From IMG/VR virus record IMGVR_UViG_3300044985_000146, positions 1 through 38,439 of that record: DNA of 38,439 nt. One strand, written 5' to 3'. Below the pieces are notes generated by a model that searched no databases, was not told the DNA's origin, and saw nothing but the letters and a program-made list of their open reading frames with translations. Numbering within the stretch: the stretch's first letter is position 1; the number at the start of each line of letters is the position of its first letter. This stretch comes from a virus. Positions 1-38,439 of the stretch are shown here, one piece after another. The translations under genes and the position numbers were made by a program.

Positions 1-1682
1 CCAAAGAGCCGCACCTTAGCGATGCTCGTTATCTGTTCCGCGTCAAGTGGGCCGATACGGACGTTGCCGAGGCGATGTTCCCTGATCGAAAAGACGTACT
101 GCAGCGCACTGCCCGACACTCCGATCTGAATTTTTTTGAGGACGATGATGATTTCAATTTCACCAGTCTGTACGCAGACCATCGCAGTTCTCACCCTGTC
201 TTTGCCCGAGGCCGAAGTTTCCTAGATACGAGTTTCAATATCGGAAACCGGCGGCGTAGGAATAAGCTGATCGAGTGTTGGTATAGGAAGCCGGTCAACG
301 GGCAATTTCTTCGCAGTAAACCCCACGCATTGATGATGCCGGAATTGCTCGATCAACTGGATCGCGTCAACGGTACGCCGTTTGACGGATCTGACGAGAA
401 CCAGCAATTTCTCATCGACGGTGGCCTGGCGTCCGTATTCGATGCGGTGGAAATGCAGGTATGGGTGGCGATATGGACCGGCGATCACTTCCTGCAAAAC
501 GTCAAGAGCCCCTACCAGCACAACCGATTTCCGTTCACGCCAATTTGGGCCTATCGCCGCGACCGTGACGGTATGCCGTATGGCCCGATTCGCAACATGC
601 GCGATGCTCAGGAAGATCTGAACAAGCGCAGATCCAAAGCCCTGTTTATCCTCTCCACCAACCAACTCATCGGTGACGAGGATGCGTTCGAGGATTGGGA
701 AGAAGCCATTGACGAGGCCGCGCGGCCCGATGGTGTGCTGAAACATAAACGCGGGGCCACCTTTGAAATCAATCGCAATATCGACCTGGCTGCCGAACAC
801 GTTCAGCTAATGAATGACGATATTAGCTTTTTGGAAAGCGCCTCTGGCGTAACGGAGGAAAATCTTGGCGAGGTAACTAACACCAACTCAGGCACCGCAA
901 TCAATTTGAGGCAAACACAAGGCAGTGTGGTCACTGCCTTGCTGTTTGACAATCTGAGAGAAAGCATACAACTGCAGGGAGAACTTGAACTTTCCCTCAT
1001 TGAACAATTCTACGCCGAGCCCAAAATGGTGCGTATCGTGGACGATAACGGCCAAAGTGAATTTATGGGCATCAATCAGCGCCAGCAAGACGATCAGGGT
1101 CAACTGAGCGTAATGAACCCGATTACCGAGTCGCAGGCTGATTTCATTGTCGATACACAGGATTTCCGCGAAACAATACGCCTCGCCATGTTCGATCAGC
1201 TCATGGATATGACGCAAAAACTCGATCCACAGGTCACGATGCAGATTCTTGACCTGATTATTGATCTTTCCGATCTGCCTGGTAAGGATGAAATTGTCAG
1301 GCGCATCCGAAAGATTAACGGCATGACCGATCCGGATGATCCAAACCGCGAGGAAATAGAGGCCGCAGCAGCCGAGCAGGATCAAGAGGACAAGGACCGC
1401 GAGGATCGTGGCACTGACGCCAAGACTCGCAAGGATGAGTCAATGGCCGATAAGGTGCTGGCCGAGGCGGCTGGCGCTCGCGCTGATACGGTACAGGCCG
1501 CGCTTGAAATTGTGGCCGCCCTGAAAGGCGATAAGAATTTGGCGCAAGCTGTCGATATTATGATGGCTTCCGTACAATCCGATGGATCTGACACGGCGTT
1601 ACAGGCGACATTGCCCGGCCCGCCGAATCAGACCCTTGAAATAGACACGCCGTTTCTTGATGAAACGGATACTCAGCAATAG
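1..1682 (+). CDS. Portal protein, P22-like (5' end cut by window edge)
   Basis: The frame is open to the left edge, so the gene starts upstream. Codons before the first internal ATG at 75 read DARYLFRVKWADTDVAEAMFPD, which resembles a conserved stretch of P22-like portals. Counted from that ATG, residues 176-207 (RDAQEDLNKRRSKAL, then STNQLIGDEDAFED) and 256-284 (ASGVTEENLGE, then NTNSGTAINLRQTQGS) are further hallmarks of the family. The last 120 residues are acidic and helical, followed by a threonine-rich tail. Portals form the dodecameric ring through which DNA is packaged and ejected and on which the head assembles. About 560 residues are visible, and full P22-like portals are usually 650-750, so roughly the first 100-200 are missing. 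The scaffold and coat genes follow directly. The assignment rests on recognised sequence patterns, not on a search. Confidence 0.85.
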   Translation, partial: KEPHLSDARYLFRVKWADTDVAEAMFPDRKDVLQRTARHSDLNFFEDDDDFNFTSLYADHRSSHPVFARGRSFLDTSFNIGNRRRRNKLIECWYRKPVNGQFLRSKPHALMMPELLDQLDRVNGTPFDGSDENQQFLIDGGLASVFDAVEMQVWVAIWTGDHFLQNVKSPYQHNRFPFTPIWAYRRDRDGMPYGPIRNMRDAQEDLNKRRSKALFILSTNQLIGDEDAFEDWEEAIDEAARPDGVLKHKRGATFEINRNIDLAAEHVQLMNDDISFLESASGVTEENLGEVTNTNSGTAINLRQTQGSVVTALLFDNLRESIQLQGELELSLIEQFYAEPKMVRIVDDNGQSEFMGINQRQQDDQGQLSVMNPITESQADFIVDTQDFRETIRLAMFDQLMDMTQKLDPQVTMQILDLIIDLSDLPGKDEIVRRIRKINGMTDPDDPNREEIEAAAAEQDQEDKDREDRGTDAKTRKDESMADKVLAEAAGARADTVQAALEIVAALKGDKNLAQAVDIMMASVQSDGSDTALQATLPGPPNQTLEIDTPFLDETDTQQ

Positions 1683-2909: not shown

Positions 2910-4037
2910 ATGGCGCGCACAATCATAGGATTAAACGATCCTAAAGCCGTAAAAAGATTCAGTGCGTTTCTGGCCGTCGATACCGCTCGTATCAGTTATT
3001 TCAACCGCAAGTTCATGGGTGTTGGCCCCGAGTCAGGGATGCCGATTCAAATGCTTCCGGAGCTTGAGAATGACGCTGGCGAGCAAATAACTTTTGATCT
3101 GATCATGCAGCTTCGGCAGCAACCGATTGAAGGCGATGACGTACAGGAAGGCACCGAAGAAGATCTCAAGTTCTACACTGATCAGGTTTATATAGATCAG
3201 ATGCGCGGCGGCGTTAATGTCGGCGGTAGAATGACGAGAAAAAGAACAATTCACGACTTGCGACGGATCTCTCGTCGCAGACAGTCGGAGTGGTGGGGCC
3301 GGGTATTCGATGAGTTGTTTTTCATCTACCTTTCCGGCGAACGCGGCGAGAACACCGAGTTCATTTTCCCAACCAGTTATGCCGGGTTTGCGAACAACCC
3401 GCTGCAGACTCCCGACGCGGATCACCGGCTCTACGGTGGTGACGCAACCAGCAAGGCGACAGTTGACGCCGCTGACATAATGGACACTGACGTTATCGAC
3501 CGGGCCAAAACCCGAGCGGTGATGATGGGTGGTGGTACGCAAGGCACCCCGCAGATTCAGCCCGTTATGATCGACGGTGAGGAACACTACGTTCTTCTAA
3601 TGTCGCCGTGGCAGGAGTTCGATCTCCGCACCGCTGCTGGCGCATCCAACTGGCTTGAAATCCAGAAGGCTGCCGCTACCGCCGAGGGTCGCAAGTCGCC
3701 AATTTTCAAGGGCGGCCTTGGGATGCACAATAATGTCGTACTTCAAAGTCATAAAGGAGTGCTTCGTTTTACAGACTACGGTTCCGGAACTGACGTACCG
3801 GCAGCAAGAGCCCTGTTCATGGGCGCTCAAGCTGGCGTTTGCGCGTTTGGTTCACCAGGCACCGGGCTCCGTTTCGACTGGCACGAAGAAAGCCGCGATA
3901 ACGGTAATCAGGTGGTAATTTCGACTTCCTCAATCTTCGGAATGAAGAAAACGAGATTCACCATCGAAGGCACAGCGAAGGACTTTGGCATCTTGGCGGT
4001 TGACACCGCTGCTGCTGATCCTGCTCCTGTAACTTAA
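2910..4037 (+). CDS. Major capsid protein, N4 gp56 / DUF4043 family
   Basis: The 375-residue product carries the recognisable pattern of N4 gp56-type coat proteins. It has DAGEQITFDL at residues 55-64, a following E-G-D-D turn, DLKFYTDQVYIDQMRG at 85-100, and GRMTRKRTIHDLR at 106-118. The later region has the expected hydrophobic strands (for example HYVLLMSPWQEFDLR) and a glycine-rich C-terminal half (FGSPGTGLRFDWHEE). Length is normal for the family. The protein forms the icosahedral shell and assembles around the upstream scaffold on the portal. The start has GGAGG at 2896-2900 with 9-base spacing. It is the most clearly identified structural gene here, and it indicates a HK97-fold capsid of the type used by N4-like and related phages. 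Confidence 0.9.
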   Translation: MARTIIGLNDPKAVKRFSAFLAVDTARISYFNRKFMGVGPESGMPIQMLPELENDAGEQITFDLIMQLRQQPIEGDDVQEGTEEDLKFYTDQVYIDQMRGGVNVGGRMTRKRTIHDLRRISRRRQSEWWGRVFDELFFIYLSGERGENTEFIFPTSYAGFANNPLQTPDADHRLYGGDATSKATVDAADIMDTDVIDRAKTRAVMMGGGTQGTPQIQPVMIDGEEHYVLLMSPWQEFDLRTAAGASNWLEIQKAAATAEGRKSPIFKGGLGMHNNVVLQSHKGVLRFTDYGSGTDVPAARALFMGAQAGVCAFGSPGTGLRFDWHEESRDNGNQVVISTSSIFGMKKTRFTIEGTAKDFGILAVDTAAADPAPVT

Positions 4038-12742: not shown

Positions 12743-12756
12743 CTGAGGACTAGCAA

Positions 12757-16473: not shown

Positions 16474-16482
16474 GAGAAATGT

Positions 16483-17241: not shown

Positions 17242-17251
17242 GGGGAGCGTC

Positions 17252-17566
17252 ATGCCGGATACACTCGACAAACAACCGTCAGAAGATCGCCTTTACGATA
17301 TGGACTTCTCGCCACGGCTGGCTGTTACGGAATTGCTTAACGCTATCCCAACGATGATTGAGGAAACCGTCGATCAGGATGATGGATCTGTGACAAGCAG
17401 CACCGATCTGACATTTGGCACACCGACCATCAGTGGGCAGATCGCACAGTGCCGCATCTCGGGCGGCCTCGATGGTGTGCTGTACAAGGTGACATTCCAG
17501 AACGCCGGCACCGACTTCGCTAATCTCGTAGAGGCCGAGGGGTTTCTCTTGGTGCAGGATATTTGA
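17252..17566 (+). CDS. Small phage structural protein with N-terminal YDMDFSP motif
   Basis: A 104-residue protein. It begins DKQPSEDRLYDMDFSPRLAV, similar to a frequent small phage protein in which an acidic leader is followed by a (Y/F)D(M/F/I)D(F/W/Y)S motif and a helix. A compact beta domain then follows (DLTFGTPTISGQIAQCRISG; GVLYKVTFQNAGTD; EGFLLVQDI). These small proteins are usually tail-associated in siphoviruses and podoviruses, but their role is not established to my knowledge. GGGGAG before the ATG provides the ribosome binding site. The stop overlaps the next start (TGATG), so it is coupled to the hub gene. Confidence 0.6.
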   Translation: MPDTLDKQPSEDRLYDMDFSPRLAVTELLNAIPTMIEETVDQDDGSVTSSTDLTFGTPTISGQIAQCRISGGLDGVLYKVTFQNAGTDFANLVEAEGFLLVQDI

Positions 17567-18828
17567 TGCCAACTCCAATTAAATTGGAGGGGTGGAAGGA
17601 TGGCTTGAATACCATTCTGCGCGTCGATTCTTTACCAATTGACGCATTACGGCGTTGTGTAAATTTCGATATTGACGACGCCGGCAAGATATCGAGGCGG
17701 CAGGGTTCAAGCAGGATCCACAGCGGCACCATCGTTAAAGGCACACTCTGGTCGAGCGACGATTTCAAACGAACGCTGTTTGTCGAGGCCGGCAGCCTGT
17801 GGGAGTTGATTGAACACCCAATCGGCACCTACACGCCGCGTCTGGTGCGTACCGGTGTCGGCACTACGCGCATGAGCTATCTGGATCTCAACGGCAACAC
17901 CTACTACACCAATGGCGTATTGACTGGCCTGATGCTGGCTGATGGCAACGCTGTAACGTGGGGGATGATTGGCCCAGGTTCACAACCGAATCTGACGCAG
18001 GGGATCTCGGGCGATCTGTTTGCCGGCACGTATCAGGTTGCGATTACCTACATTGCCACCAGTGGCGAGGAATCCGGCACTGGCCTTGCAAAGACAATCG
18101 AGGTCGTGGCTGATAACAGCTCGATCCTGTTGAGCGACTTCCCGGCCTCACCACCGGGTACGGCGTTTATCCGTGTCTACGTGACACACCGCGACGGTGA
18201 AGGCTTGTACCGAATGAGCGACCTTCACCCGGCAGCCACGCACTACGAGATCGACAAGGTTGCCAATACCGCCGCATTTCGTTTGCAGACTCAGTTCGGT
18301 ATGGCACCGCCGCCGGGAGATATTCTCGAGTACCACAACGGTCGCATCTACATCGCCAACAACAACATTCTTTGGTTTACTGAGCCATTGCGTTACGGGC
18401 TGGTGAAGCCGATGAAAGGCTTCCTGCAATTCCCGAAACGCATAACGATTGTCAAGGCGGTGGACGATGGTATCTACGTTTGCTCAGATCGAACATATTG
18501 GGTTTCCGGCGTCGATACGCCGCAGTTTCACCAGCGCGAAGTGCTGCCATACGGCGGTGTCTTTGGAACGGGCATCAACATTCCAAACTTCGACGCGGTG
18601 GCCTGGTTCTCTAAAAGAGGTATCTGCTTTGGCGGTGAGAACGGAGAAGTATTGAACATCATGCAGGACCGGGTTGCTGTGGCCGAGTACGGCTATGGCA
18701 CGATGCTCTGGCGTGAACACAAAGGTATTCGACAGATCGTAGCCGATTTGTGGGAGGGCGAGCTGAACACGTATGCAGCCGCCGATTATGTCGCTCTGGA
18801 AACAGCTCGGGGCGGCGAATTTATTTAA
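17566..18828 (+). CDS. Tail hub / stabilisation protein, P22 gp10-like beta-propeller candidate
   Basis: The 420-residue protein has the typical opening of podoviral tail-hub proteins: GLNTILRVDSLPIDALRRCV, then NFDIDDAGKISRRQG (residues 13-47). In this pattern an N-x-x-x-x-x-x-LP-x-x-A-LR helix leads to the N-(F/V)D-x-(D/T)-x-x-G-x-(L/I)-x-RR-x-G strand. Repeated blade-like segments follow: LWSSDDFKRTLFVEAGSLWE; YYTNGVLTGLMLADGNAVTW; LEYHNGRIYIANNNILWFTE; DDGIYVCSDRTYWVSGVD. In P22, gp10 forms the hub between adaptor and tail spike and keeps DNA in the head. A TTG three bases upstream could also initiate, but the ATG at the TGATG overlap is the better choice. The family signature is recognised by eye. 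Confidence 0.65.
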   Translation: MPTPIKLEGWKDGLNTILRVDSLPIDALRRCVNFDIDDAGKISRRQGSSRIHSGTIVKGTLWSSDDFKRTLFVEAGSLWELIEHPIGTYTPRLVRTGVGTTRMSYLDLNGNTYYTNGVLTGLMLADGNAVTWGMIGPGSQPNLTQGISGDLFAGTYQVAITYIATSGEESGTGLAKTIEVVADNSSILLSDFPASPPGTAFIRVYVTHRDGEGLYRMSDLHPAATHYEIDKVANTAAFRLQTQFGMAPPPGDILEYHNGRIYIANNNILWFTEPLRYGLVKPMKGFLQFPKRITIVKAVDDGIYVCSDRTYWVSGVDTPQFHQREVLPYGGVFGTGINIPNFDAVAWFSKRGICFGGENGEVLNIMQDRVAVAEYGYGTMLWREHKGIRQIVADLWEGELNTYAAADYVALETARGGEFI

Positions 18829-19635: not shown

Positions 19636-20709
19636 GTGTCGCATATTTGGTCAGATGGCTTTACTGCCTACGAGTTTCTGTCGGACTTTGATCAGCTCTA
19701 CACCCGCGAGGGTGTGAGCAACAATCTTCGTCTGGTACAGGATGGTGGGCCTTCCGAGAACGGATCCGTGCGCCTGGGTGGCGTCGATCAGTCGAACTCG
19801 GGGTTCTACCGTGACTTAGGCACAAGCATAACGATTGGCTATATAGGCTTCTGGTTCAAGTTCAACGACTTTGATACCACCGATGGGCTTGACGATATGA
19901 TCTTCAAGCTGTCAGCAACTACAACCGTGCGTATGTCCATGCGGTTAAGTGATGATGGCAGCTTGCAGATCCGCAGAAGCACGACCGGCACGGAGCATTT
20001 CGATTCGTCCGACATTACGGATACGATTGATGGTCTGCAGCACTTCCTGTTCCGTGGCACGGAATACAAAATTGAGCTCAAGATCGAGGGAGTCAATAAT
20101 ACTGGCTCCCTTGAGCTTAGGGTCAACGATGAAGTGTGGGGCTTGCTGGACTCGAAAGATTTCGATGGAACCTACGACCGGATCTCGTTTCAGACCGGCT
20201 CGACTGGTGAGGGTGCGGATTTTGAGATTAGCGACCTCTATGTGTTTGACGATCAGGGCAGCATCAAAGACAACAAGACGTTTTTGGGCTCCACCTGGGC
20301 GATAGAGATTTTGCGTCCGGATGCGGAAACAGCTCAGATTGATTTCACGCCTGAGAGCGGCGTTGATAACTCGGCAATGGTCGATGATGCGCCGCGCAAC
20401 AATGCCGACGCCGACTGGAACGACAGCACCGGTGACGCACAGATTGATCGCTTGACCAGCACCGATGTACTCGCCGGTGGGCAGGTACACAATGTCTCGG
20501 TGATCAATGTCGCCCGGCATACCGGCAGCGCGCAAAACTTTCGAGCGGTAATCTTTGAGGGAGCCACCAGTGGCAACGGTGCCGACGAGACATTGGCTGA
20601 AACCTTCCAAGTGTTCATGGAGGATTACGAAACCAATCCAGACACCACCGATCCGTGGACCGTGACAGAAATTGAAGCGGCCGAGTTCGGCTACGAGTCA
20701 AGAGCCTAA
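19636..20709 (+). CDS. LamG-like (jelly-roll) tail protein, copy B
   Basis: The 357-residue protein starts at GTG 19636; an ATG at 19623 is out of frame. The N-terminus (SHIWSDGFTAYEFLSDFDQL) and the strands GYIGFWFKFNDFDTTDGLDD, TTVRMSMRLSDDGSLQIRRS, EYKIELKIEGVNNTGSLELR and ADFEISDLYVFDDQGSIKDN give a clear LamG/concanavalin-like pattern. The C-terminal part (LGSTWAIEILRPDAETAQID, then WTVTEIEAAEFGYES) is the extension typical of these phage proteins. It is a paralogue of the gene at 6635-7666, and like it stands immediately upstream of a short-repeat protein. It probably binds glycans or decorates the tail. Confidence 0.7.
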   Translation: MSHIWSDGFTAYEFLSDFDQLYTREGVSNNLRLVQDGGPSENGSVRLGGVDQSNSGFYRDLGTSITIGYIGFWFKFNDFDTTDGLDDMIFKLSATTTVRMSMRLSDDGSLQIRRSTTGTEHFDSSDITDTIDGLQHFLFRGTEYKIELKIEGVNNTGSLELRVNDEVWGLLDSKDFDGTYDRISFQTGSTGEGADFEISDLYVFDDQGSIKDNKTFLGSTWAIEILRPDAETAQIDFTPESGVDNSAMVDDAPRNNADADWNDSTGDAQIDRLTSTDVLAGGQVHNVSVINVARHTGSAQNFRAVIFEGATSGNGADETLAETFQVFMEDYETNPDTTDPWTVTEIEAAEFGYESRA

Positions 20710-26424: not shown

Positions 26425-28185
26425 ATGGCTAATGACAACCTACAGAATTTAACCCCGGAAGAATGGGCCTTACTTGAAGATGAGCTTCGGGTAGTAGCTG
26501 GCCCGCCCTTGACCGAAGAACAGCTTGCGCCAAGGCCGCCGCCTGATATACCGGGACCACCGACCGTACAGGACGCCGCGCGTAGCAAGCAAGTTCGCGT
26601 AGACACTGCGCGGCAAATGCTCGGTGAACTTGACGGTAGCGAAACACCTGAGTTCTTGGCAAAACTGAAATTAGAGGCCGGCTTTGCTTCTGAAAATGCC
26701 AGCGCACCGGCCAATGATGCGTCTGGTTTTACCCCTGTCTCACGGACTCCCTCGCCAGATGGGTTCGCCCTGCCCGAGCGTGGTGGTGGTGTGCCTACGA
26801 TGGCTGACGTAGAACGTGCAGCCAGAGGCTTGACAGCCGGGCAGCCCGACCCCGAGGCAGAGTTTTTTGATATTCCGCAAGATCCTCAGTTTGACAACCC
26901 ACTTATGGATGCGCCACCTGTTGTTGGAGATATGCCAATCAGCGGTGGCGGGCCAATGGAATATCTGCGTGACTTCGGGCGTGAGGCGGGCGAACAATTC
27001 AGTCAGTTTGGCACTGATGTTGACCGTGGCTTGACCTCTCTTTTCCCAAATCTTACAGAGGAAATGGCGGTTACTAATGACGCGGTGCCGGCTGCCTTTG
27101 AAGGCTACGCTGATGCTGACGCTGCCGGGCGCGGGCAAATGATTGGCGAAGGTTTTATTGAAACGACCAGTGGCGCTGGCAGGGAACTGATGGCGCTTGG
27201 TAATGACACGTTTGGCCGACTGAATCCTTTGGTTGAAGGTGCCGCTGGCATCTACACCGGAATTTTTGGTGGTGGTGGCGGCAATCAGGCAAACGCGGCC
27301 GACGAAATAACCACAAACATTCCACCAACACCGGTGGCCGAGGAAGATCCACCGGGCAATGAGGACGTTGACGATCAGGGCAACCTGAGCAGGGCCGATG
27401 CCTCTCAGAAAGCCGCCGAGGATAATGTGGGCAAGGGCGGCGGCAAGGGCGAAGAACCCACTTCATTCAGCTATATTAGCGACGAGAACGGGGTGCAATC
27501 AGGGCCAACTACCTTTGAGGAAACGCCAACCGGCATACATATCAACAACCCCGAGCTAGAAGGGCCGCCACTCGGCGGCATGGAAATCATTCGTGGCCTC
27601 AACCGCTCGTTCCAGCCCTTCAACGAGCAGGGCCGTGTTGATCCGGACTCTGGCGAGATCCCGTTTGGCGATGATGCTTTTGAACGCATGAGAAATTCCG
27701 GTTTGAGCGCCGACCAGGCTATTGATTTGACAGGTGAGCAGGCTACGGCACAGCTCGCCGCTAATAATGCAGTGACGCAGATCAACTTACCGCAAGACGA
27801 TGGCACTACGCTGATGGGGCTCAGGATTGTCGATCCGGAAGCGGATGGCGGTATTCGCATTGTGCCAACCGATGTGCTGGTGCCGCTGACAGAAACAATG
27901 GCGATTGCCTCGGAGTCGTATGCCTCACCTGATGGTTTGGGCGGGCTGATTGAGCTTGATCGTCCGGTCTTTCTTAGGGACTCACCTGATGGCAGCGGAA
28001 TTACGCGCATACAGGTGACGCCGGGCAACGCTGGCGCATCGGCATTGCTGCTGAATGAAAAAAACCACGGCCCGTTTGCTGACTTTATGGAACAGGTGGC
28101 CGCTGGCGGCATAACGGATCCGGAAGCACAATTCAATGAGGCGCTGCTACTGTTGCAGGAATTTGTTGATAACGCAGAGCGATAA
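26425..28185 (+). CDS. Large hypothetical virion protein with Gly-rich membrane-active segment
   Basis: The 586-residue, acidic, largely disordered protein has a short helical start (LTPEEWALLEDELRVVAG) and long Pro/Gly/Asp-rich linkers. A glycine-rich hydrophobic stretch at about 249-287 (GAGRELMALGNDTFGRLNPL, EGAAGIYTGIFGGGGGN) resembles the segments in the N-terminus of the giant protein that follows. The C-terminal 200 residues look globular (DDGTTLMGLRIVDPEADGGI; TPGNAGASALLLNEKNHGPF; PEAQFNEALLLLQEFVDNAE). The start follows AGAGGTAG. It ends 2 bases before the giant gene, so they are probably coupled and may be packaged together. No named family; ejection protein is a contextual guess. 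Confidence 0.6.
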   Translation: MANDNLQNLTPEEWALLEDELRVVAGPPLTEEQLAPRPPPDIPGPPTVQDAARSKQVRVDTARQMLGELDGSETPEFLAKLKLEAGFASENASAPANDASGFTPVSRTPSPDGFALPERGGGVPTMADVERAARGLTAGQPDPEAEFFDIPQDPQFDNPLMDAPPVVGDMPISGGGPMEYLRDFGREAGEQFSQFGTDVDRGLTSLFPNLTEEMAVTNDAVPAAFEGYADADAAGRGQMIGEGFIETTSGAGRELMALGNDTFGRLNPLVEGAAGIYTGIFGGGGGNQANAADEITTNIPPTPVAEEDPPGNEDVDDQGNLSRADASQKAAEDNVGKGGGKGEEPTSFSYISDENGVQSGPTTFEETPTGIHINNPELEGPPLGGMEIIRGLNRSFQPFNEQGRVDPDSGEIPFGDDAFERMRNSGLSADQAIDLTGEQATAQLAANNAVTQINLPQDDGTTLMGLRIVDPEADGGIRIVPTDVLVPLTETMAIASESYASPDGLGGLIELDRPVFLRDSPDGSGITRIQVTPGNAGASALLLNEKNHGPFADFMEQVAAGGITDPEAQFNEALLLLQEFVDNAER

Positions 28186-28187
28186 GC

Positions 28188-31100
28188 ATGGCAACATCAG
28201 AGGATATTCTCCTTGAGTTGTTGGAAGAACAGCGCCGTAAGGAAGCCGCGGCTAAGGAAGCCAAGGCTGCCGCCACGCTGCAGGCACCGCCCGATGTAAT
28301 CAGGACGGAACGGACCCCGATTCGCACTGAACCATTGCTCTCGTCGTTGCGCCTGGCGGCACCACCAACCTCGGCGCAACCAGCTCGGGCCGCACCGCAA
28401 GCAGTTCCCACAGGACCGACAAGGCTCACTGACGATCAGCGGCAGGATGCGATTGCGCGCGTTGAGCGTAGAGGCGCTATCAGGGCAGAGGATCGTGAGC
28501 TTGCGGTGCGTAGTGCGGAAGCGGGCCGACCGCGATCTTTGCTCGGAGCATTTACTGGCGGCATCGGTGGCGTGGTTGGTGGCATACCAGAGGGCATCGA
28601 GGGGCTTGTCACTGCACCCTTTGAGGCAGCTTTCGGGGATCTCGATACACCGCCAGAAGATCGGCCGGGTCGCAGGCTTGGCGAATACATACGTCGCGGC
28701 TTCCAAGGCCCGGTCAACCCCAAATACGCCGAGGATTTCAGCACTCACCTGTCACAAGGCGCTGGCTCACTGGTGGGCTTCTTTGCCGGTTCTCTGGTTG
28801 GTCGTGCCGCTGGCCTCTATACCGGGGCCAAGGCGGCTAGTGGCTTGGGCGTTAGTGAATCGGTGGCAGCAACAATGGCGGCCCGCTCTGGTGTTCAGGC
28901 TGGTCGTGTAACTGCCGGCATCATTGGTTCGCTGACCGTAGGTGCTGACTCCATCAGGGACGCTGAGCGCAACCAGGCCGATGCGGGCGAGCGCTTCGGT
29001 GCCTTTGTCGGCGGCTTGGGTTTAGGTGCCACTGAAATGCTGACCTTTGGCGCGATCCTGAATCGACTCGACAAGGGCAGTGGTGGTTTCGTCAACCGCT
29101 GGATACAGAAATCCTTTGCCGGCAACGTGGCTGTGCAGGGTCTTTCCGGTGCGCTTGAGGAAGGTATTCAGGAGTTCGTACAGAACGCCGGCACCAATGC
29201 GATTGCCAAAGCGCTGTTCGATGCTGACCGCCAGATCATTGACGCTGGTGTGATTGAAGGATCTGAGATCGGCGGCATCCTCGGCTTCACACTGAGCGCA
29301 CTGGTCACGGCTCTTGGTGGCCGCCATGCAGCTCGCAGTATCGGTGGACTGGATATGCCACCGAGCGGGCCGGCTGAAAAATCGGAGGCGGTAGTCAGTG
29401 GTAAGCCGGTACGACCGGACGAAGAAGCGGTTTCGCTGGACTCCGTGAGCGGCGCTGAGAGCGTCCCTGCCGAGCCTTTGACCCCGGAGCAGCAGGCACA
29501 GCTAGACCTTGAGACAGAGGCGCAGGCCACAGCAGCGTCCAACGCACCGGCAGCCTTGACCCAACGCAGGGACTCACTGCAAGCCTCGCTAGAGCAGATC
29601 ACAGATCCTACCGCCCGAGTTGCGGTACAAGCCGAGCTGCGGCGCGTAGAAGCTGAGATCGTTGGCAAGAAGCCCACCAGGCGCACCCGTAAAGAGAACG
29701 CAATACTGGCGCGTACCCCACTGCTGGACGATAGCGCCGATATCGTGATCAGGAAGCTCGGCGGGCTGGATACCGAGATCGAGAGTGATTTCTCGGGCCG
29801 CCTGAAAGGCACAGATTTGGCGGGCCGCAAGAATATCCTTGGCATCCAAGTGGCCGACATTGAGCGCCCCGGATCAGGGGTAACGCTGGATCAGGTAGCC
29901 GAAACATTCCATGAACTCGGTTTTATCCCTGAGAACGATTCGCAGCTTGCCGCTGCAATCATCGAGCGCATCGAGGCCGGCGAGGTTGTTCGCAACCCGC
30001 GCAGCGCCGCCACTGAGGGTGAGCTTGAGGCCGAGGCCAAACAGCATGAGCTGGATCTCGCTGAACAGGCCGCCGATCAGAGCGAGACAGGCGAGCCGCA
30101 GTCCATCGAACAACTGACCACACGCCTTGGCGAGCTGGACGAGGATCTAGCCGAGAACATTTCTAAGAAAGACCTGTCGGACGATGCGCGAGTAGCGCTC
30201 CTGCAGGACAACATTCAACGACTTGAAGGAGAGCAAGGTGTCGAACAAGGAACTGAACCAGAAACCGGAGATCAGTCCACTGGACTGGCTGAAACAGAAC
30301 GCGAGCCTCTCGGCACGGAGCCAGAGGCCGACACCACTGGTACAGAATCCGGTGAGCTTGAATCCGGCGCAGGACAGGAACCCGGCACCGGTGAGCCTGC
30401 CAGCACCGAAACAGGGGTAGAAGTATTCCCCGAGGCTGGCTCGGAGGGTGTAGATGGCGTTGCCGATGATGGCCTAGAGGAATACCGCGCTAAGGCGACC
30501 GAGGACTTTGCCCGCGAGGGTGTATCAGACCGAGATCGCACCGTGAAGGTTGCCGCTTTACGTGCGAACGTGAGCGACGAAGCTGCCGACGCTTACGACA
30601 GCACCTATCAGGGGTTGGTTGATAAGGCAGTTGCGGATCGCCTAGAAGCGCCCGCCGAGGGGGCCGAAACTGAGGCTGATGCTGCACTGCAGCAAGGGGA
30701 AGAAGATGCAGGAACAGGGGAGGGCGGCGAAGCGGCGGAAGGCGCGGGAGCTGAAACAGGCGTTGAAGGAGCAGAGGGCGAGGGAGCTGAAACAGGCGCA
30801 GGCACCGAAACCACCACCAGCCCCGGTGAGGGCGAGGCCGATACCGACACGGATAGGGATGGCGGTACACCGGTCGCTGGTGAAACGGTAGAAACTGAAT
30901 CTGTTGTCGAGCCCGTTCCTTTGTCGGAGCTGTTTGAGTTTGCCGAGCAGGCGATTGAAGCCGAGACAAATATCCGACCAGATCAGCGGGCAGCCACAGT
31001 ACGAGCGTTGAAGGCAGCGCGTGAAGGCGATACGAGCAAACTTACCGAGTTATTTCTTCTCGATAAATCGCAAGTCCTCGACTTTGATCAATTCGAGACA

Positions 31101-34100
31101 TTTGCTGATTTCGCCGCTGACCAAAAGGAATCGCAGCAGTTCGCAATCGACAAAGTTAGCGCCGATATTCAGAGCAGGCTGCAGTCATTAGATAAGGTCA
31201 CTGACACCGAAGAAATACGGGTATTACTCCGACGCGGAACAGTTGGTAGTCCACCGAGTACGGGCCAGTTGGGTGGTCAAGAACACGGCAAGATTTACCA
31301 GTTTCCAGAGCTGTCGAATACCTTATTTGAGAAATTAAAAAGCAAGGGTGGCAAAGAAAAAATTCAAGGCGAATTGGGCCTGCTTGCCAAACTGTACGAC
31401 AAGGCTGGTTTGATTGAAGAAGCCGAGCGTTATCGTCAACGCATCGGCAAAATGACCAAGGCCGATGTGCAGAAATTACGTGCTGCCCAGGTAAAGACAG
31501 ATCGCGCCAGCGTTAAAAGTGCCATCGCTGCAGACATAGGCGCAACCTTGGGAGAGTCTCAGGACGTACAGGACAAGAACGAAAAAGAAGATATCGCCAA
31601 GGCGGTCTTTATTGCCAGCACTGACACACGCAAATCAATCTTAAATTCTCCTGCAAAGGTTCAGAAATTAGCTGGACTTTCTCAGGAAGATTTTGCTATC
31701 AAAGCGCGGGATCTGATTGACGAGTGGCTGCTCTCGGAGAAAGAAAAAGCCGGTGACGCTGGCGACTCTATACGCATGAGTGGATTGGAAACGGTAGCGG
31801 CCGAGGGGTTCTTCGACGGACTGTTCTTTGCATCGTTGCGCGTTGAGGTTGAAAAGCGCGAAAGCAGCGATAAAAAGGACAAAAAGGACACCAAAAAAGC
31901 AGAGACAAAGCGCGGCGAAAAGTTTGGTACTACCGGTGTTCGCTTACGCCGCTGGTGGGAGCAAAAAACCGAGCAGGCCAAAGATGCCGATAGCAGTAAT
32001 GCGGAACGCTTTTCAAAGGATCTAACCTCGGCCACACAACGCGCCGAGCTGTTTCCGGTTGAGCGCTTAGCGAAGGGTGGCACTCCCGGCCTGAAACGCT
32101 ACTTTGAATATCTCCGGTCTTTTATCACGCCGTTCAAGGAACGACAGCAAATTTTGGGAGATCACTTTAGTAGCTGGAACTCGTTTGACGAGAACATATC
32201 CAACATCATCACCGATGAGAATAAGGTCAAAAGAACCCGAGAAGAAGCGGTCGAGTACATTGCAACCGTCACTGACTTTGCCAAGATATTTGAAGGCGCG
32301 AAAACCATTGGCGAGGCATCCGATCTAATGGTGCGAGCGCTTGGTACGTCTGAGGAACGCACTGCGCTTGGCGACCGCATGTACAAGCTCGGCAGAAAGT
32401 CCCGCTATATCCATCGACAAACCGCGCAGACCGACTTCCATCGTACTGCTACGTTCCAAGTCACGCGCATGGTCGAGGAAGAAGATAAGCCCGACACCGA
32501 GGTTAAAGGCACCAGAGCGACCGCAATACGGCGCGAGCGTTTCGCGGTTGAGGATATGGTGCGCGAGGGTATGCCTGATGTTCGCAAGGGCAAAGACGTT
32601 GATCCGAAGCAGATACGAGACACCTTCAATTTCGGCTGGATGGGTGGCAAGGCCGATCCGATAACGATTGGTGACAACGTAACAGTCCCGCAGCAGCGGG
32701 CTCATGCCAATTCGTCTTTTGAAGCGTTTCACGATCTCGCGGCAGTCTTAAAAATACCGGTCAACGCTATCGGCCACGGCGAGCGACTTTATTACAGCAT
32801 CGGTGCGCTCGGCAGGGGCGGCCGGCACTCCGCGCACTTCGATCCGGGGCAGCCGGCTCCATTTGGCGGTGGCATTGTTGAGGCGATCAACCTGACCAAC
32901 ACCAACGGCAATGGCAGTGTTGCCCACGAATGGGCTCATTCGCTGGATCACTACCTGACGAGAACAGAGGAAGGTCGGAGGTTTATCCACGAACTGAAAA
33001 TACAGCTCGAAAACAACTTCGACATTGATCAGATAGACGGTCATATCGGCCGCACGGTAGACAGCTTGCTCGATGGCATTTCCTATTACCCAGGCAGCAA
33101 GCGAAAGGGTGGCAAGTTCAACGCCGAGCTGTTCTTGGATAGAACAATCAGAGAAATGGAGCGCGGTTTCGGCACCCACCACCTACACAAAACTAAATTT
33201 TCTGTCGAGGCTAAACGCTCTGGCAACGGTGATTACTGGAATGACCCAAAGGAACTGCTGGCCCGAGCATTTGAGTCATGGGTTTACGATGAAATTGAAG
33301 CGGAGGGCGGCGCATCTGAATATCTGGTCAATGATTGGGTGTCAGATGGCAAGGTTAAAAATCCACCATACCGCTTCACGCCATATCCCACCGACAACGA
33401 AAGATCACATTTTGCAAAACTCTTTGAGATTTTACGCGATTCATTGGTGGTCGATAAAGATGGTGCGATAACTCTCAAGGACGGTAGCGCCGAGAGAGTG
33501 AAAGAGTACCGCCTCGCCATCGTCAAGCGCCTGAAAGAAATGCGCGAGGATATGGATGGCTACATCGAACAACGAAAACTCGAAAATGAAGATAAGAAAC
33601 GAGCGGCAGAACTTGAGGCTAGGCGCAAGCGTGACGAAGAAGCGGCTGCTACTGCAGCGTCCATTGAGGAAGCGTTGGGCGGTGACACCACCGACCTTGC
33701 TGACATTAAGATGGATCAGATCCATAACCTGTCCGAAGAAGAACTGGACGAGTTGCTCGACATTATTGACGCGCAGGCAGACGAAGAAGAAGCCGACCCT
33801 CGATGGGAGGATGATCACGCCGGCGACCGACCTGACCAGCAGGATATTAGCGAGGACATAACCGGTACGCCTGATCCAATTCTTGTTGGCACTGAAAAGC
33901 TGATTAAGCGCCTGCAGCAAGTTTTCAATCGCAACGAATCACTGGATAACCCATCGTTCTTCAAGCTGGCCGATGAAGCATTTGGCGGCAGTCGCGGCGA
34001 AGGCGTCTATACCACCAAAGACGCTTACGACGCGATGGAGCTGGCGGTCAACACCAATATGCGAACGCTGTTTGAACAAGCAGACGTTAAGTATGCAGAC

Positions 34101-37100
34101 GCCGCCGACTGGATCCCCTTCCTCAATGACTTCACGGCCAAGCTGCCAACGCAGACCAACCGTTCCGAGGAACAGATCAAGCTGCAGCAGTTCTCGACAC
34201 CACCACCGTTGGCGTACATGGCCGGGTTTGTTGCAAACATTACCGCAAGCGATACGGTGTTGGAGCCCTCGGCAGGGACCGGCTCACTGGTAGTGCAGGC
34301 ACAGTCCCAAGGTGCCACCGTCATAGCGAATGAGCTGAATCTGCGACGTAACACTCTGTTGCAAACGCTCGGCGTGAGAACGCTTTCTGTGGACGGTGAA
34401 TTTATCAACTCACACATGAAGGGCGATGATCGTCCCTCGGTGGTGCTGATGAATCCGCCGTTCTCGGCGTCACCAAGGGGCGCAAAGAACAAGACCAAAC
34501 GCGGTGCCAATCACGTTGAAAACGCGCTAAAAGCATTGCGTCCGGGTGGCCGGCTCGTTGCCATTGTTGGCAAGGGTATGCAACGCGGCAAGCCTACTTT
34601 CAAAAAGTGGTGGAACAAGATTGACAGCGAGTACAACGTGCGGGCCGCCGTGCGCTTGGCTGGCAAGGAGTACCGAAAGTTTGGCACGACCTTTGATGTG
34701 GTCGTTCTCGTTATCGACAAGCCAAGCGACTCAGATCCCAAAACAACAGTCAAGAAGAATATCAAGACAAATAGCGTAGATACGGTTGCCGATCTGATAC
34801 CATTATTCGAGGAAATCCGTGATGGCAGACTTCAACTCAACGAACCAACACCGAGTCAACAAGCTCTCGAAAGCGGCCCTGCAGAAGATGGGGGTTCAGG
34901 TGGAGCCGGCACAGGTACACCTGCTGCAACTGATGGAGGCGATTCTGGAGGGGGGCAACAGCGGCCTGGTGGACAGGAATCAGGTGGCGAAGCTGCAGGA
35001 CAAGGTGGATCTACTGAACTTGGCGGAACCGGAACAGGCGATGGCGTGGATGGGACTGACCGGCCCGGAACAGACGATCAGCGCGCCGACACTGGCACGG
35101 ATCAAGGATCCGATACAGAGGGGACAAGTCCTGATACAGACACTCCACCTGCAGACAGCGGCCCAGGACGAGACATATCCGTAGGAGATCTGGCGACTGA
35201 GGTTGCCAAAGATGGTGTTGTCATGCTGGACGAAACCCTTAAAGGTTTGGTCAAGTTATTCGGCGGCAACAGCGCTAAATCATTCCCCGCTGGCTTCGAT
35301 GAAGAAGCATGGAAAGAAGGCCGCGAGCATTTTCATCTGGCGGTAGAAGCCTACGAGCGGATCGGCCTGAACGTGCGGGAAATGTATCGACGCATGAAGA
35401 AGGTCTTTGGATCCTCTACCAAGCCTTATTTTTATCAATACTTCCGCGAGCGCAAAGAGGCCGACAACAATCAGCCGCAAGCACCAGAGACTCCTATTGA
35501 TGCCAATACCGCCGATGGCATGGTCAACAGCCCAACCAAGGAAGAACCCAAGAAGAAGAAACTGACAGACGATCAGTACGAGGTTTGGGGTTCCACCAAT
35601 ACGCTACCCAACGCGAAACCGCATCCTGCAGAAATTGTTGAATCGGCCTCGATGGCGGTGCTTGATCTGCCGCAAACCGATTACCGCCCCACCGGCATGG
35701 ACAAGCTGATTGAAGAAGGCGTTATATCCGATGTGCAGCTTGAGCCGATCATTCACGCCGGCGATGCTCACAGACAGATGATGCCGGCAGAGGAACGCGA
35801 TGACCCTGAGATACGCCGTGGCATTTTGATTGGCGATGGAACTGGTTTGGGTAAGACCCGCGAGCTGCTTGGCATCATTCTCGACAACATGAACCAGGGC
35901 AGAAAAAAAGCAATCTACATCACCAAAAACCAAGGCTTGATCGAGAAGATGCTCTCCGATATGTCGGTCATGGAAATGGACAAGAAGTTATTGCTTCGCG
36001 GTAAAGATTTTAAGGTGCAAAGCGCCATTCAGGCTACCGAGGGAATACTGGCAACCTCGTACAACACCATCGGTAATTCTCTGCTTGATACCGAACGTGG
36101 TGGCACAACAGAGTTTAATAAAGGCAGGGAAGTTATTGAGGTCGCAACCGGCAAGCGCGGTGTGATTACGTCGCCACCGTCAGCAAAGAAAACTACGGTT
36201 AATGTGAAATTTAAGGGTCAGTCGAAAGTTGGTACATTCTCGCAGCAAGAGCTGCGGCCCATCGGCATAAAGACCGAGGACCGAACCAAAAACGAACAGC
36301 TCATAGAATGGGTTGGCCGTGACTTCGATGGCGTCCTGATATTTGACGAGGCGCATCTGATGGGTAGTTCCATACAGGTGCAAACCGGGCGCGGCATAAA
36401 GAAAATGAGTGGCATGGCTCGCGCCGGTATGGATCTGGCAGCACAGTTGCCAAACGCTCGCGTTGTGTATGCAACAGCCACGGTCGCCAGCGAGGTCAGC
36501 CAACTCGCCTATCTTGATCGCCTCGGTTTATGGGGTCGTGGCACACCCTACGCAGACAAAGCGGCGTTCATTGACGATTACCTGCTCGACGGTCTTTCCG
36601 GTATGGAACAGCTCGCCCGCGATATGAAGCAACTCGGTATTGGGCTGGCACGAAAGATCAGCTACAAAGGCGTGACCAACGAGCGGTTGACACATCAAAT
36701 CAGTGACGAACAAACAGAAATCTACGATGAGATCGTTCTCGCGTGGCAGACCATCTTAAATAATTTTGAAAAAGCATCCTCAGAAGAAATAACGGGCGCA
36801 GTCAATAGCAGAAACGCGCAAAACAATATAAGCAGAGCTATTTGGGGCTTTCAGCAACGCTTTTTCAAAAACATTTTACTGACATTGAAGATGCCAACCG
36901 TGTTGGCACACGCTGACGAAAAGCTGGCGAAGGGCGAGGCTGTTGTTATCCAGCTCGCGCTTACCGATGCCGCGCCGCAAGGAAAGGCGCTTGAAGCAGG
37001 TATAGCGGCTGGCCTCGATTTTGTTGACATAGACCTGTCGCAAAAGCAGCAACTCATTAGCCTGGTTAAGAGGTTCTTCCCGGTACAGCAATACACGGAA

Positions 37101-38439
37101 GCGCAGGACGAGAACGGCGATCCGATTTGGGTGGCGGTCACTCACCTTGACGAGAATGGAGTCTCACAACCCACTGAAAATCCGGAAGCGGTGAGGATGA
37201 GGGATCAGCTCGTCCAGAATTTGCGAGACATTCGCATACCGAGTGGTGCGCTGGATATGTTCATCCAGCACTTCGGTCACGAAAACGTGGCTGAGTTTAG
37301 CGGTCGCACCAAACAGCTCATTATCAACGACAAAGGCGAACAGGAGTACATCAAAAAACCTGCCAATCAGGTTGAATTAGATTCCTTCCAAGACGATCTA
37401 AAACAGATCCTTATTTTCTCTCCTTCGGGCAATACAGGCATGGACGCACATGCCGACCTGATGCGGAAGAACCAGCGCAAACGCAATCATTACGTTTTCG
37501 ATCCTGGGTGGGAAGCCAAGCAAGCAATGCAGGGCATCGGACGCGACCATCGCTCCAACCAGAAGCAACCACCGCACGTTGTTATGACTGAATCCAACGT
37601 GAAAGCAGAAGGGCGCTTTATGTCCTCGATTGCCAAGCGTCTAGCCAATCTCGGCTCGCTATCGTCGGGCTCGCGTGAGACTGGCGGCGGCGGGCTGTTT
37701 AAGGCCGAGGACAACCTTGAGACAGAGTACGGCGAGGCGGCTATCAGAGATTTCTTCCGCGCCATATTGGCTGGCCGTATGCCGCAAATTAGCGAGGCTG
37801 ATCTTGAGCGGGAAATGGGCCTCAAGGATCTCACCGATGATGATGGCAACATTATCGACAGTAAGCTGCCGGTCGTAAGTAAGTTTATGAACCGACTGCT
37901 GGCGACCACGATCAAGCGTCAGAACTATTATTTTGATCGTTTCTTTGAAATGTTGACTGCTAATGTTGAGGCAGCCATTGCCGATGGCTCGTATGACGCC
38001 GGCCTGCAGAACCTTGTTGCAGAATCGTTGGAGGTCGTACATGAGGAAGTGGTTTACACCGACGAGAGAACGGGCGCTGAAACCAAATACATAAAGGTCG
38101 AGCTGACCAACCCGGTTCGCTATAACAGCTTCAAACAAACGATTGAAACGGGCATCCAGATCGACCGCACCTTGTTTTTCTTCGCAAGAAATATAGGAAG
38201 TGGCAGAGTTTACGCAATGTTTGAAGCCCCGGATTTACAGGAAGCCAAGACCGGCAACATCAAACGTCGTTATCGTCGTGAAGGCATCGAGGGAATGTTC
38301 GGCAGCCTCGTTAAACAGGACGATGTAAGAACCGAGGATGCAAAGTGGGGGCGCAAGGCCAATTACGAGAAACTTGAGGTAGACGAGGCGAAGAAATTAT
38401 GGACGGAACAGATTGAGGATGCCGACCTAACTCGCACCG
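28188..38439 (+). CDS. Giant polyvalent protein: LPD1-like region, N6-adenine methylase, Strawberry-notch helicase (3' end beyond window)
   Basis: An uninterrupted frame of 3,417 codons, still open at the edge. In order: a helical start; Gly-rich hydrophobic segments (about 118-390; GGIGGVVGG, GSLVGFFAGSLVGRAAGLY) suited to membrane passage; a small domain with RKLGGLD and GVTLDQVAETFHELGF (about 515-605); an acidic low-complexity linker (668-905); helical regions; an LPD1-like region with GALGRGGRHSAHF and VAHEWAHSLDHY (HEWAHSLD at 1580); an N6-adenine methyltransferase (EPSAGTG from 2026, NPPF at 2089-2092); a second linker (2215-2335); a Strawberry-notch helicase (GDGTGLGKT at 2549-2557, DEAH at 2720-2723, GRDHRSNQ near 3118). 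P1 DarB has a methylase and helicase of this type, is packaged and protects injected DNA from type I restriction. A similar role is inferred here. Confidence 0.85.
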   Translation, partial: MATSEDILLELLEEQRRKEAAAKEAKAAATLQAPPDVIRTERTPIRTEPLLSSLRLAAPPTSAQPARAAPQAVPTGPTRLTDDQRQDAIARVERRGAIRAEDRELAVRSAEAGRPRSLLGAFTGGIGGVVGGIPEGIEGLVTAPFEAAFGDLDTPPEDRPGRRLGEYIRRGFQGPVNPKYAEDFSTHLSQGAGSLVGFFAGSLVGRAAGLYTGAKAASGLGVSESVAATMAARSGVQAGRVTAGIIGSLTVGADSIRDAERNQADAGERFGAFVGGLGLGATEMLTFGAILNRLDKGSGGFVNRWIQKSFAGNVAVQGLSGALEEGIQEFVQNAGTNAIAKALFDADRQIIDAGVIEGSEIGGILGFTLSALVTALGGRHAARSIGGLDMPPSGPAEKSEAVVSGKPVRPDEEAVSLDSVSGAESVPAEPLTPEQQAQLDLETEAQATAASNAPAALTQRRDSLQASLEQITDPTARVAVQAELRRVEAEIVGKKPTRRTRKENAILARTPLLDDSADIVIRKLGGLDTEIESDFSGRLKGTDLAGRKNILGIQVADIERPGSGVTLDQVAETFHELGFIPENDSQLAAAIIERIEAGEVVRNPRSAATEGELEAEAKQHELDLAEQAADQSETGEPQSIEQLTTRLGELDEDLAENISKKDLSDDARVALLQDNIQRLEGEQGVEQGTEPETGDQSTGLAETEREPLGTEPEADTTGTESGELESGAGQEPGTGEPASTETGVEVFPEAGSEGVDGVADDGLEEYRAKATEDFAREGVSDRDRTVKVAALRANVSDEAADAYDSTYQGLVDKAVADRLEAPAEGAETEADAALQQGEEDAGTGEGGEAAEGAGAETGVEGAEGEGAETGAGTETTTSPGEGEADTDTDRDGGTPVAGETVETESVVEPVPLSELFEFAEQAIEAETNIRPDQRAATVRALKAAREGDTSKLTELFLLDKSQVLDFDQFETFADFAADQKESQQFAIDKVSADIQSRLQSLDKVTDTEEIRVLLRRGTVGSPPSTGQLGGQEHGKIYQFPELSNTLFEKLKSKGGKEKIQGELGLLAKLYDKAGLIEEAERYRQRIGKMTKADVQKLRAAQVKTDRASVKSAIAADIGATLGESQDVQDKNEKEDIAKAVFIASTDTRKSILNSPAKVQKLAGLSQEDFAIKARDLIDEWLLSEKEKAGDAGDSIRMSGLETVAAEGFFDGLFFASLRVEVEKRESSDKKDKKDTKKAETKRGEKFGTTGVRLRRWWEQKTEQAKDADSSNAERFSKDLTSATQRAELFPVERLAKGGTPGLKRYFEYLRSFITPFKERQQILGDHFSSWNSFDENISNIITDENKVKRTREEAVEYIATVTDFAKIFEGAKTIGEASDLMVRALGTSEERTALGDRMYKLGRKSRYIHRQTAQTDFHRTATFQVTRMVEEEDKPDTEVKGTRATAIRRERFAVEDMVREGMPDVRKGKDVDPKQIRDTFNFGWMGGKADPITIGDNVTVPQQRAHANSSFEAFHDLAAVLKIPVNAIGHGERLYYSIGALGRGGRHSAHFDPGQPAPFGGGIVEAINLTNTNGNGSVAHEWAHSLDHYLTRTEEGRRFIHELKIQLENNFDIDQIDGHIGRTVDSLLDGISYYPGSKRKGGKFNAELFLDRTIREMERGFGTHHLHKTKFSVEAKRSGNGDYWNDPKELLARAFESWVYDEIEAEGGASEYLVNDWVSDGKVKNPPYRFTPYPTDNERSHFAKLFEILRDSLVVDKDGAITLKDGSAERVKEYRLAIVKRLKEMREDMDGYIEQRKLENEDKKRAAELEARRKRDEEAAATAASIEEALGGDTTDLADIKMDQIHNLSEEELDELLDIIDAQADEEEADPRWEDDHAGDRPDQQDISEDITGTPDPILVGTEKLIKRLQQVFNRNESLDNPSFFKLADEAFGGSRGEGVYTTKDAYDAMELAVNTNMRTLFEQADVKYADAADWIPFLNDFTAKLPTQTNRSEEQIKLQQFSTPPPLAYMAGFVANITASDTVLEPSAGTGSLVVQAQSQGATVIANELNLRRNTLLQTLGVRTLSVDGEFINSHMKGDDRPSVVLMNPPFSASPRGAKNKTKRGANHVENALKALRPGGRLVAIVGKGMQRGKPTFKKWWNKIDSEYNVRAAVRLAGKEYRKFGTTFDVVVLVIDKPSDSDPKTTVKKNIKTNSVDTVADLIPLFEEIRDGRLQLNEPTPSQQALESGPAEDGGSGGAGTGTPAATDGGDSGGGQQRPGGQESGGEAAGQGGSTELGGTGTGDGVDGTDRPGTDDQRADTGTDQGSDTEGTSPDTDTPPADSGPGRDISVGDLATEVAKDGVVMLDETLKGLVKLFGGNSAKSFPAGFDEEAWKEGREHFHLAVEAYERIGLNVREMYRRMKKVFGSSTKPYFYQYFRERKEADNNQPQAPETPIDANTADGMVNSPTKEEPKKKKLTDDQYEVWGSTNTLPNAKPHPAEIVESASMAVLDLPQTDYRPTGMDKLIEEGVISDVQLEPIIHAGDAHRQMMPAEERDDPEIRRGILIGDGTGLGKTRELLGIILDNMNQGRKKAIYITKNQGLIEKMLSDMSVMEMDKKLLLRGKDFKVQSAIQATEGILATSYNTIGNSLLDTERGGTTEFNKGREVIEVATGKRGVITSPPSAKKTTVNVKFKGQSKVGTFSQQELRPIGIKTEDRTKNEQLIEWVGRDFDGVLIFDEAHLMGSSIQVQTGRGIKKMSGMARAGMDLAAQLPNARVVYATATVASEVSQLAYLDRLGLWGRGTPYADKAAFIDDYLLDGLSGMEQLARDMKQLGIGLARKISYKGVTNERLTHQISDEQTEIYDEIVLAWQTILNNFEKASSEEITGAVNSRNAQNNISRAIWGFQQRFFKNILLTLKMPTVLAHADEKLAKGEAVVIQLALTDAAPQGKALEAGIAAGLDFVDIDLSQKQQLISLVKRFFPVQQYTEAQDENGDPIWVAVTHLDENGVSQPTENPEAVRMRDQLVQNLRDIRIPSGALDMFIQHFGHENVAEFSGRTKQLIINDKGEQEYIKKPANQVELDSFQDDLKQILIFSPSGNTGMDAHADLMRKNQRKRNHYVFDPGWEAKQAMQGIGRDHRSNQKQPPHVVMTESNVKAEGRFMSSIAKRLANLGSLSSGSRETGGGGLFKAEDNLETEYGEAAIRDFFRAILAGRMPQISEADLEREMGLKDLTDDDGNIIDSKLPVVSKFMNRLLATTIKRQNYYFDRFFEMLTANVEAAIADGSYDAGLQNLVAESLEVVHEEVVYTDERTGAETKYIKVELTNPVRYNSFKQTIETGIQIDRTLFFFARNIGSGRVYAMFEAPDLQEAKTGNIKRRYRREGIEGMFGSLVKQDDVRTEDAKWGRKANYEKLEVDEAKKLWTEQIEDADLTRT
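30238..30420 (+). CDS. Possible overlapping gene in giant-gene linker (60 residues)
   Basis: In the +1 frame relative to the giant gene, GTG 30238 is preceded by AAGGAG at 30226-30231 with a 6-base spacer. The product begins MSNKELNQKPEISPLDWLKQ and ends in a Pro-rich tail, stopping at TAG 30418-30420. The giant protein here is a Glu/Gly/Thr-rich linker with little sequence constraint, which leaves room for a second coding frame. Against this, the +1 frame is often open elsewhere in the gene, and SD-like GGAG strings are common in E/G-rich linkers. Unproven. Confidence 0.22.
   Translation: MSNKELNQKPEISPLDWLKQNASLSARSQRPTPLVQNPVSLNPAQDRNPAPVSLPAPKQG
30746..30798 (+). repeat. 17-base direct repeat in low-complexity linker
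   Basis: GGGAGCTGAAACAGGCG occurs at 30746-30762 and 30782-30798, 36 bases apart (12 codons), in frame. Both copies encode GAETG in the acidic linker of the giant protein. It suggests that the linker grows by local duplication. Confidence 0.7.
34822..35184 (+). CDS. Possible overlapping gene in methylase-helicase linker (120 residues)
   Basis: In the +1 frame relative to the giant gene, ATG 34822 has GAGGA at 34809-34813 with an 8-base spacer. A GTG directly before it is in the same frame. The 120-residue product (MADFNSTNQHRVNKLSKAAL, LLQLMEAILEGGNSGLVD, VAKLQDKVDLLNLAEPEQAM) looks like a soluble helical protein. The main frame in the same bases is a Gly/Thr/Asp/Glu-rich linker. The match of frame limits to linker limits is suggestive. 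However, a G-rich linker automatically gives E, Q, L, V, A and M codons in this frame, and other +1 open stretches of similar length exist in the gene. Unproven. Confidence 0.28.
   Translation: MADFNSTNQHRVNKLSKAALQKMGVQVEPAQVHLLQLMEAILEGGNSGLVDRNQVAKLQDKVDLLNLAEPEQAMAWMGLTGPEQTISAPTLARIKDPIQRGQVLIQTLHLQTAAQDETYP

Follow-up and report, generated by a model that had tools for sequence, protein, structure and literature searches.

A giant podovirus reading frame joining a zincin, an adenine methylase and a Strawberry-notch helicase: a probable injected counter-restriction protein

What is the role of a single protein of more than 3,400 residues, encoded downstream of the structural genes of a podovirus, in which a peptidase, a DNA methylase and a helicase are joined in one chain? 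The gene lies at the end of the window, by which we mean the whole 38,439-base IMG/VR fragment analysed here, carrying podovirus late genes of portal, capsid, tail and head-closure type. The genes that frame the question are the following:

3..1682, plus strand: portal protein, 5' truncated (phrog_156, E 1e-107)
2910..4037, plus strand: major capsid protein (52-55% identity to Bcep22-like phages)
17563..18828, plus strand: head-closure-type structural protein (phrog_8040, E 7e-54)
26425..28185, plus strand: gene directly 5' of the giant, fast-evolving and without family match
28188..38438, plus strand: giant polyvalent ORF (3,417 aa seen; 4,827 aa in the relative L019)

The giant ORF starts with ATG, runs through 3,417 codons and is open at its 3' end at the contig edge, where base 38439 falls outside any full codon. 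One continuous frame of more than 3,400 residues had been claimed in a preliminary description of this DNA, and the claim holds: given the base composition of the ORF itself, a run of 3,417 codons free of stops would arise by chance with a probability of about 10^-65, and the same frame is found in L019.

The capsid protein is 52-55% identical to its counterparts in the Bcep22-like phages CSP3, DC1 and Atu_ph08, and its relatives are spread over many genomes of Pseudomonadota and some outside that phylum; contigs from several different samples carry capsid proteins with 95-100% identity to that of the window (L098-L102). The slot of the giant in the late operon is that of the giants of CSP3 (4,647 aa), Atu_ph08 (4,877 aa) and POI1126 (4,841 aa), namely last in the virion gene module and ahead of the lysis genes, the lysis side being read in L019, where spanin-like and amidase genes lie 3' of the giant. 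The gene directly upstream (26425-28185) has a C-terminal half of only 29% identity and opens, as the giant does, with a short acidic helix and a Pro-rich stretch after it; its product may be a second ejected protein.

L019 was found by a profile scan with the methylase-helicase part and encodes the giant at full length on an independent contig of 71,343 bp (sister genome G032), which probably represents about a whole genome, since both contig ends lie inside the gene just upstream of the giant. Its gene order is the same as in the window and its capsid protein is 97.6% identical, so that a nearly invariant capsid accompanies a giant that differs at more than a third of its positions (about 60-64% identity). 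Along the giant, identity is mostly 52-85% in the domains and 24-56% in the linkers at about residues 676-1125 and 2176-2475. Most hits to the methylase-Strawberry-notch (Sbno) query in annotated records are plasmids, as might be expected had an assembly error fused a phage contig to a plasmid methylase-Sbno gene. Such a chimera is contradicted by the sister contig, with its identical gene order and its own copy of the ORF, and the module is present on many further contigs that bear a portal gene; we reject it, leaving it a negligible probability.

The preliminary description named LPD1, an N6-adenine methylase and a Strawberry-notch helicase in the ORF, and all three were confirmed, LPD1 and the helicase by Pfam and the methylase by PHROG families, motifs and predicted fold. 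The parts of the giant within the window are:

28188..28262, plus strand: N-terminal charged/amphipathic helix (MATSEDILLELLEEQ...), with MATSE-ILL-LLEE kept in L019
28485..29387, plus strand: Gly/Ala-rich, moderately hydrophobic region, residues 100-400 (composition, hydrophobicity)
29550..30122, plus strand: conserved domain without known function, residues 455-645 (identity to L019 reaching 85%)
30123..31562, plus strand: acidic linker of low complexity, residues 646-1125 (mostly 24-44% identity)
31563..32543, plus strand: all-helical domain, residues 1126-1452 (AF2 model)
32544..33467, plus strand: zincin-like metallopeptidase domain, residues 1453-1760 (AF2, A4/A5 alignments)
32925..32939, plus strand: HEWAH (HExxH) motif, residues 1580-1584
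33222..33431, plus strand: Pfam LPD1, carrying E1689 (Pfam, A4/A5 alignments)
33876..34142, plus strand: LPD36-like four-helix domain, N-terminal to the methylase (AF2 helices at model positions 3-90)
34143..34823, plus strand: gamma-class N6-adenine DNA methyltransferase domain, as predicted from PHROG families, motifs and fold
34824..35612, plus strand: Gly/Asp/Thr-rich linker with a small helical domain at about 2330-2400 (composition, conservation)
35619..36731, plus strand: Strawberry-notch N-terminal NTPase domain, AAA_34 (GDGTGLGKT at 2549, DEAH at 2720)
37248..38009, plus strand: Strawberry-notch C-terminal helicase domain, Helicase_C_4 (GxGRxHRxxQ at 3116)
38010..38438, plus strand: start of the post-helicase region, cut by the window edge

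The methylase region comprises the LPD36-like domain, with a conserved FGG..-G-G.Y motif, and the catalytic domain, with FSTPP at 2002, EPSAGTG at 2026 and NPPF at 2089. The AF2 model of both (residues about 1897-2212) has a pLDDT of 92 and matches HsdM, M.TaqI, M.BseCI and the Type ISP enzymes LlaGI and LlaBIII with Z values of 15-18, which is evidence of fold and not of activity. From the TP motif, SAM motif I, NPPF and the modeled fold, the domain is clearly predicted to be a gamma-class N6-adenine methylase of the HsdM/TaqI-like type. HsdM and the Type ISP enzymes share the methylase fold with an N-terminal helical domain, and the latter also fuse an SF2 motor to the methylase; in contrast to these enzymes, neither a nuclease nor a target-recognition domain was seen in the window giant, and no conventional target-recognition domain was seen between methylase and helicase. 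A PDB sequence search with the methylase-helicase part gave nothing significant and phrog_9 added no information. In the window and L019 the small helical domain at residues 2330-2400 (35175-35387) separates the methylase from the helicase, but in related zincin giants such as L028 it precedes LPD36, a difference in place that we take as a sign of domain shuffling.

The Strawberry-notch helicase spans residues 2476-3274, with both Pfam domains passing their cut-offs (AAA_34, E 6e-77; Helicase_C_4, E 3e-68) and SF2 motifs I, II, III and VI present. The NTPase domain is split by a 64-residue insertion (36081-36272) that is kept in L019 and absent from the plasmid proteins aligned. The preliminary description had counted inactive methylase and helicase sites in all relatives as a refutation. 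The opposite was found, with sites intact in nearly all of the 85 ORFs that carry both modules: NPPF is kept in 84 and DExH in all 85, the Walker A lysine is kept in all motifs listed (at least 82 of the 85 ORFs), and GRxHR is broadly kept.

The zincin had been missed in the preliminary description, where LPD1, correctly detected (Pfam E 2e-13, residues 1679-1748, above the Pfam cut-off), was treated as a region of its own. The AF2 model of the zincin, from 51 sequences, has a mean pLDDT of 85 and contains the HExxH helix, a further helix with a Glu and a small beta-sheet core. HExxH is present in 55 of 56 relatives, and as the helix with the invariant Glu falls inside Pfam LPD1, the latter corresponds to the C-terminal half of the zincin, which gives this orphan Pfam domain a role. 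The Glu in question, E1689, is proposed to be the third zinc ligand. A plain Foldseek search of the model and a PDB sequence search with the zincin profile gave no significant match. A structural second look placed zinc metallopeptidases on top (lethal-factor type, Z 8.0; PPEP-1, Z 7.5), and although the values are moderate (Z 7.4-8.0), metallopeptidases fill the list for the zincin range, as evidence of fold and not of activity. This is in line with the link already drawn between polyvalent-protein peptidases and the lethal-factor fold (PMC5512222). In another giant (L047:8303-9178) the motif reads REFFH, and that zincin is probably an inactive copy.

The zincin might itself be the effector, cutting a host protein after injection and leaving the methylase-Sbno unit a secondary role. 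Zincins are conserved across giants with different cargo, and among the closest solved structures are zinc metallopeptidases whose substrates are other proteins. The window-type zincin was, on the other hand, detected in only nine Sbno giants, as against strict conservation of the methylase and helicase motifs in 85, and we regard the effector reading as very unlikely.

Scans of viral contigs with the whole protein and with the N-terminal part gave no relative other than L019, and the N-terminus thus appears lineage-specific. The Pro-rich stretch after the N-terminal helix is not kept in L019, in contrast to the helix itself, a candidate capsid-targeting sequence in analogy to the 30 residues that begin P1 DarB (PMC9024508). 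The start of the protein had been called membrane-type and Gly-rich. Residues 100-400 are indeed Gly/Ala-rich but only moderately hydrophobic (best 19-residue mean 1.48) with weak hydrophobic segments; a membrane-active part or membrane insertion is possible, and other giants gave weak profile matches in their N-terminal parts (L093, E 6e-5). The domain at 455-645 shows elsewhere only a weak GG-motif resemblance. The central 600 helical residues of the preliminary description (about 905-1475) turned out to contain a conserved helical domain at 1126-1452, with the remainder made up of weakly conserved acidic linker up to about residue 1125 and the start of the zincin. A sub-domain of the helical part (about 1235-1330) recurs in other zincin giants and is common to 29 ORFs. 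LPD5 was rejected as the identity of the helical domain (hhalign probability 0.14%), and fold matches of this part to cullin, talin and, in one weak row, T7 gp15 looked like helical-bundle noise and were not used.

That more domains lie beyond the contig edge had been anticipated, and all statements on the giant beyond residue 3417 come from L019. The post-helicase region, conserved with other Sbno proteins and cut in the window, was not recognised as a SnoC winged-helix domain. In L019 the helicase is followed by an Sbno-associated region, a RadC-like JAB domain (E 1e-10) and a phage-type C-terminal module common to the Stx-phage-type P27 giant (E 3e-44) and CSP3 (E 6e-23). The part preceding LPD38 is common to all three, and LPD38 was not detected in L019. 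P27 gp51 (LPD5-LPD1-MuF_C-LPD38) occupies the same kind of slot and its zincin/LPD1 is 31.7% identical to that of the window, but it has neither methylase nor helicase. A C-terminal module common to P27-type giants without these enzymes is as expected of a packaging or ejection part.

Unrelated enzymes and LPDs are thus joined in one polypeptide encoded near structural genes, as is characteristic of polyvalent proteins. Such proteins, the methylase-helicase dyad and the occurrence of Sbno 'in a few instances' were described in 2017 (PMC5512222), and methylase-helicase giants of Bcep22-like podophages are likewise known (PMC6630229, PMC10269572, PMC6606913, PMC9144972). The order zincin, methylase, Sbno was also found in at least eight other giants, so that the novelty claimed for the domain order was overstated. 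The DarB-like giants (JC1 gp69, CSP3 orf43, Atu_ph08 gp21 and that of Parlo) resemble the window giant in size, slot and the combination of a methylase with an SF2 motor. They differ in that their motor is of SNF2/HepA type, with SNF2-rel_dom in CSP3, Atu_ph08 and POI1126 where the window has AAA_34 and Helicase_C_4, and the window giant has, unlike them, a zincin with LPD1. Its methylase is of a different lineage, the A6 profile being without match in CSP3, Atu_ph08 and POI1126. An N-terminal lytic transglycosylase or cell-wall hydrolase is present in CSP3 and Atu_ph08, whereas none was found by Pfam in the window or L019.

P1 DarB, a 250-kDa capsid-borne protein whose first 30 residues direct its packaging and which gives protection from EcoK and EcoB (PMC9024508), is an analogue in function, namely a capsid-borne methylase-helicase dyad directed against type I restriction (PMC9024508, PMC5512222). 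It differs in being without sequence match (no P1 record was among the phage tblastn matches at E 1e-5), non-Sbno by published classification, and dependent on DarA and other partners. For the Bcep22-like giants, antirestriction is itself a role deduced from homology, and no homologues of the P1 Dar partners have been reported there (PMC9144972).

From slot and intact sites, and by analogy with these giants, the ORF probably encodes an injected DarB-like counter-restriction giant of a Bcep22-like podovirus, in which Sbno replaces the SNF2-type helicase. The injected anti-defence machine of the preliminary description therefore remains the best-supported reading, albeit less novel than stated. 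The giant would be made late, packed into the head via the N-terminal signal and/or the C-terminal module, and ejected together with the DNA. The Gly/Ala-rich N-terminus could aid the crossing of, or docking at, the envelope, after which the zincin would cleave the long linkers and free the functional units. The methylase-Sbno unit would then travel on the entering double-stranded DNA, driven by ATP, and methylate its adenines, which would spare it from cleavage by host restriction enzymes, in the first place those of type I. Both a methylase-motor dyad that travels on and methylates incoming double-stranded DNA and the freeing of polyvalent units by zincins have been proposed earlier, and the zincin-bearing virion RNAP of N4 is nevertheless packaged uncut (PMC5512222), so self-cleavage of the giant is not assured.

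Alternatively, the giant may not be injected at all and may act late in the infected cell, for example in recombination, or in the methylation or processing of phage DNA ahead of packaging. Genes of a late operon are expressed late, the plasmid homologues act inside cells, and RadC-like and Sbno domains would suit DNA processing. However, the DarB-like gp69 of JC1, encoded in the same slot, is represented by 51 unique peptides in virions purified on CsCl (PMC9144972), and the C-terminal module occurs also in giants without DNA enzymes, which makes a purely intracellular role unlikely.

Podoviruses with enzyme-driven genome entry are known (T7 and N4), and a hydrophobic N-terminal region together with a double-stranded-DNA motor in a podovirus late protein would fit an Sbno translocase that, anchored close to the inner membrane by the N-terminus, pulls the genome in at the expense of ATP while the methylase marks the passing DNA, restriction protection being secondary. 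But P27-type giants in the same slot lack a helicase, so the slot needs no motor, and 639 plasmid records match the methylase-Sbno query, where there is no virion to serve; we hold this to be quite unlikely. A more elaborate form, in which a membrane-associated machine reels the genome in by Sbno and the HsdM-like methylase, possibly borrowing host HsdS, gives the entering DNA the host's own type I methylation pattern, is a highly improbable, speculative extension.

How widespread is the combination on which the counter-restriction reading rests? The methylase part matched 25 of 50,697 records of cultured phages, and no match of the window query covered the Sbno part; a plasmid Sbno query matched a single record, Bacteroides phage BS-TP4, at 22% identity. 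In IMG/VR, on the other hand, at least 359 confirmed stretches matched the profile of the methylase-helicase part; such counts are lower bounds, and plasmids may be among the contigs. The podovirus portal family phrog_156 was matched by 18 of the 34 contigs checked (12 strongly), and the Sbno-giant contigs are accordingly taken to be phages. Knowledge of injected counter-restriction giants comes nearly all from P1 DarB and a few cultured Bcep22-like phages with SNF2-type motors; culture collections almost entirely lack Sbno giants, which are common among uncultivated podoviruses, so that cultured phages give a biased picture.

The LPD36-methylase-Sbno unit is also found on conjugative and other plasmids, for example those of Methylomonas, Methylotuvimicrobium and Mesorhizobium, where it is 36-40% identical over some 1,440 residues and lacks the N- and C-terminal parts of the phage giant. 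Further along the Methylomonas protein follow ArdC-N and MPTase-PolyVal. In a quick helicase tree, for which no root was inferred, the window and L019 pair with full support on a long branch, and two methanotroph plasmids and a third plasmid stand beside a portal-bearing phage contig (100). These neighbours in the unrooted tree indicate that the methylase-Sbno cassette has moved between phages and plasmids, and since phages with related capsids carry an SNF2-type motor in the same type of giant, the motor appears to have been swapped. A cassette common to phages and conjugative plasmids points to one DNA-protection module serving two routes of DNA entry.

On Azospirillum plasmid p7 (L015:5743-10954) the methylase-Sbno gene lies between type I-E CRISPR genes and the gene of a restriction endonuclease that is phosphorothioated-DNA-binding; defence, and not counter-defence, may therefore be the task of some plasmid copies.

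Elsewhere in the window, comparison with the sister genome G032 delimits a hypervariable tail/receptor cassette (8600-17250). The 958-aa protein at 7671-10547 has a counterpart in G032 for its first 307 residues only, and the genes from 10617 to 17241 are all without one, while the flanking structural genes are 46-98% identical. On or near the two sides of this cassette lie two paralogue pairs, of phrog_2448 (6635-7666 and 19636-20709) and phrog_13135 (16483-17241 and 18841-19623), suggesting duplication of tail-fibre or adaptor genes.
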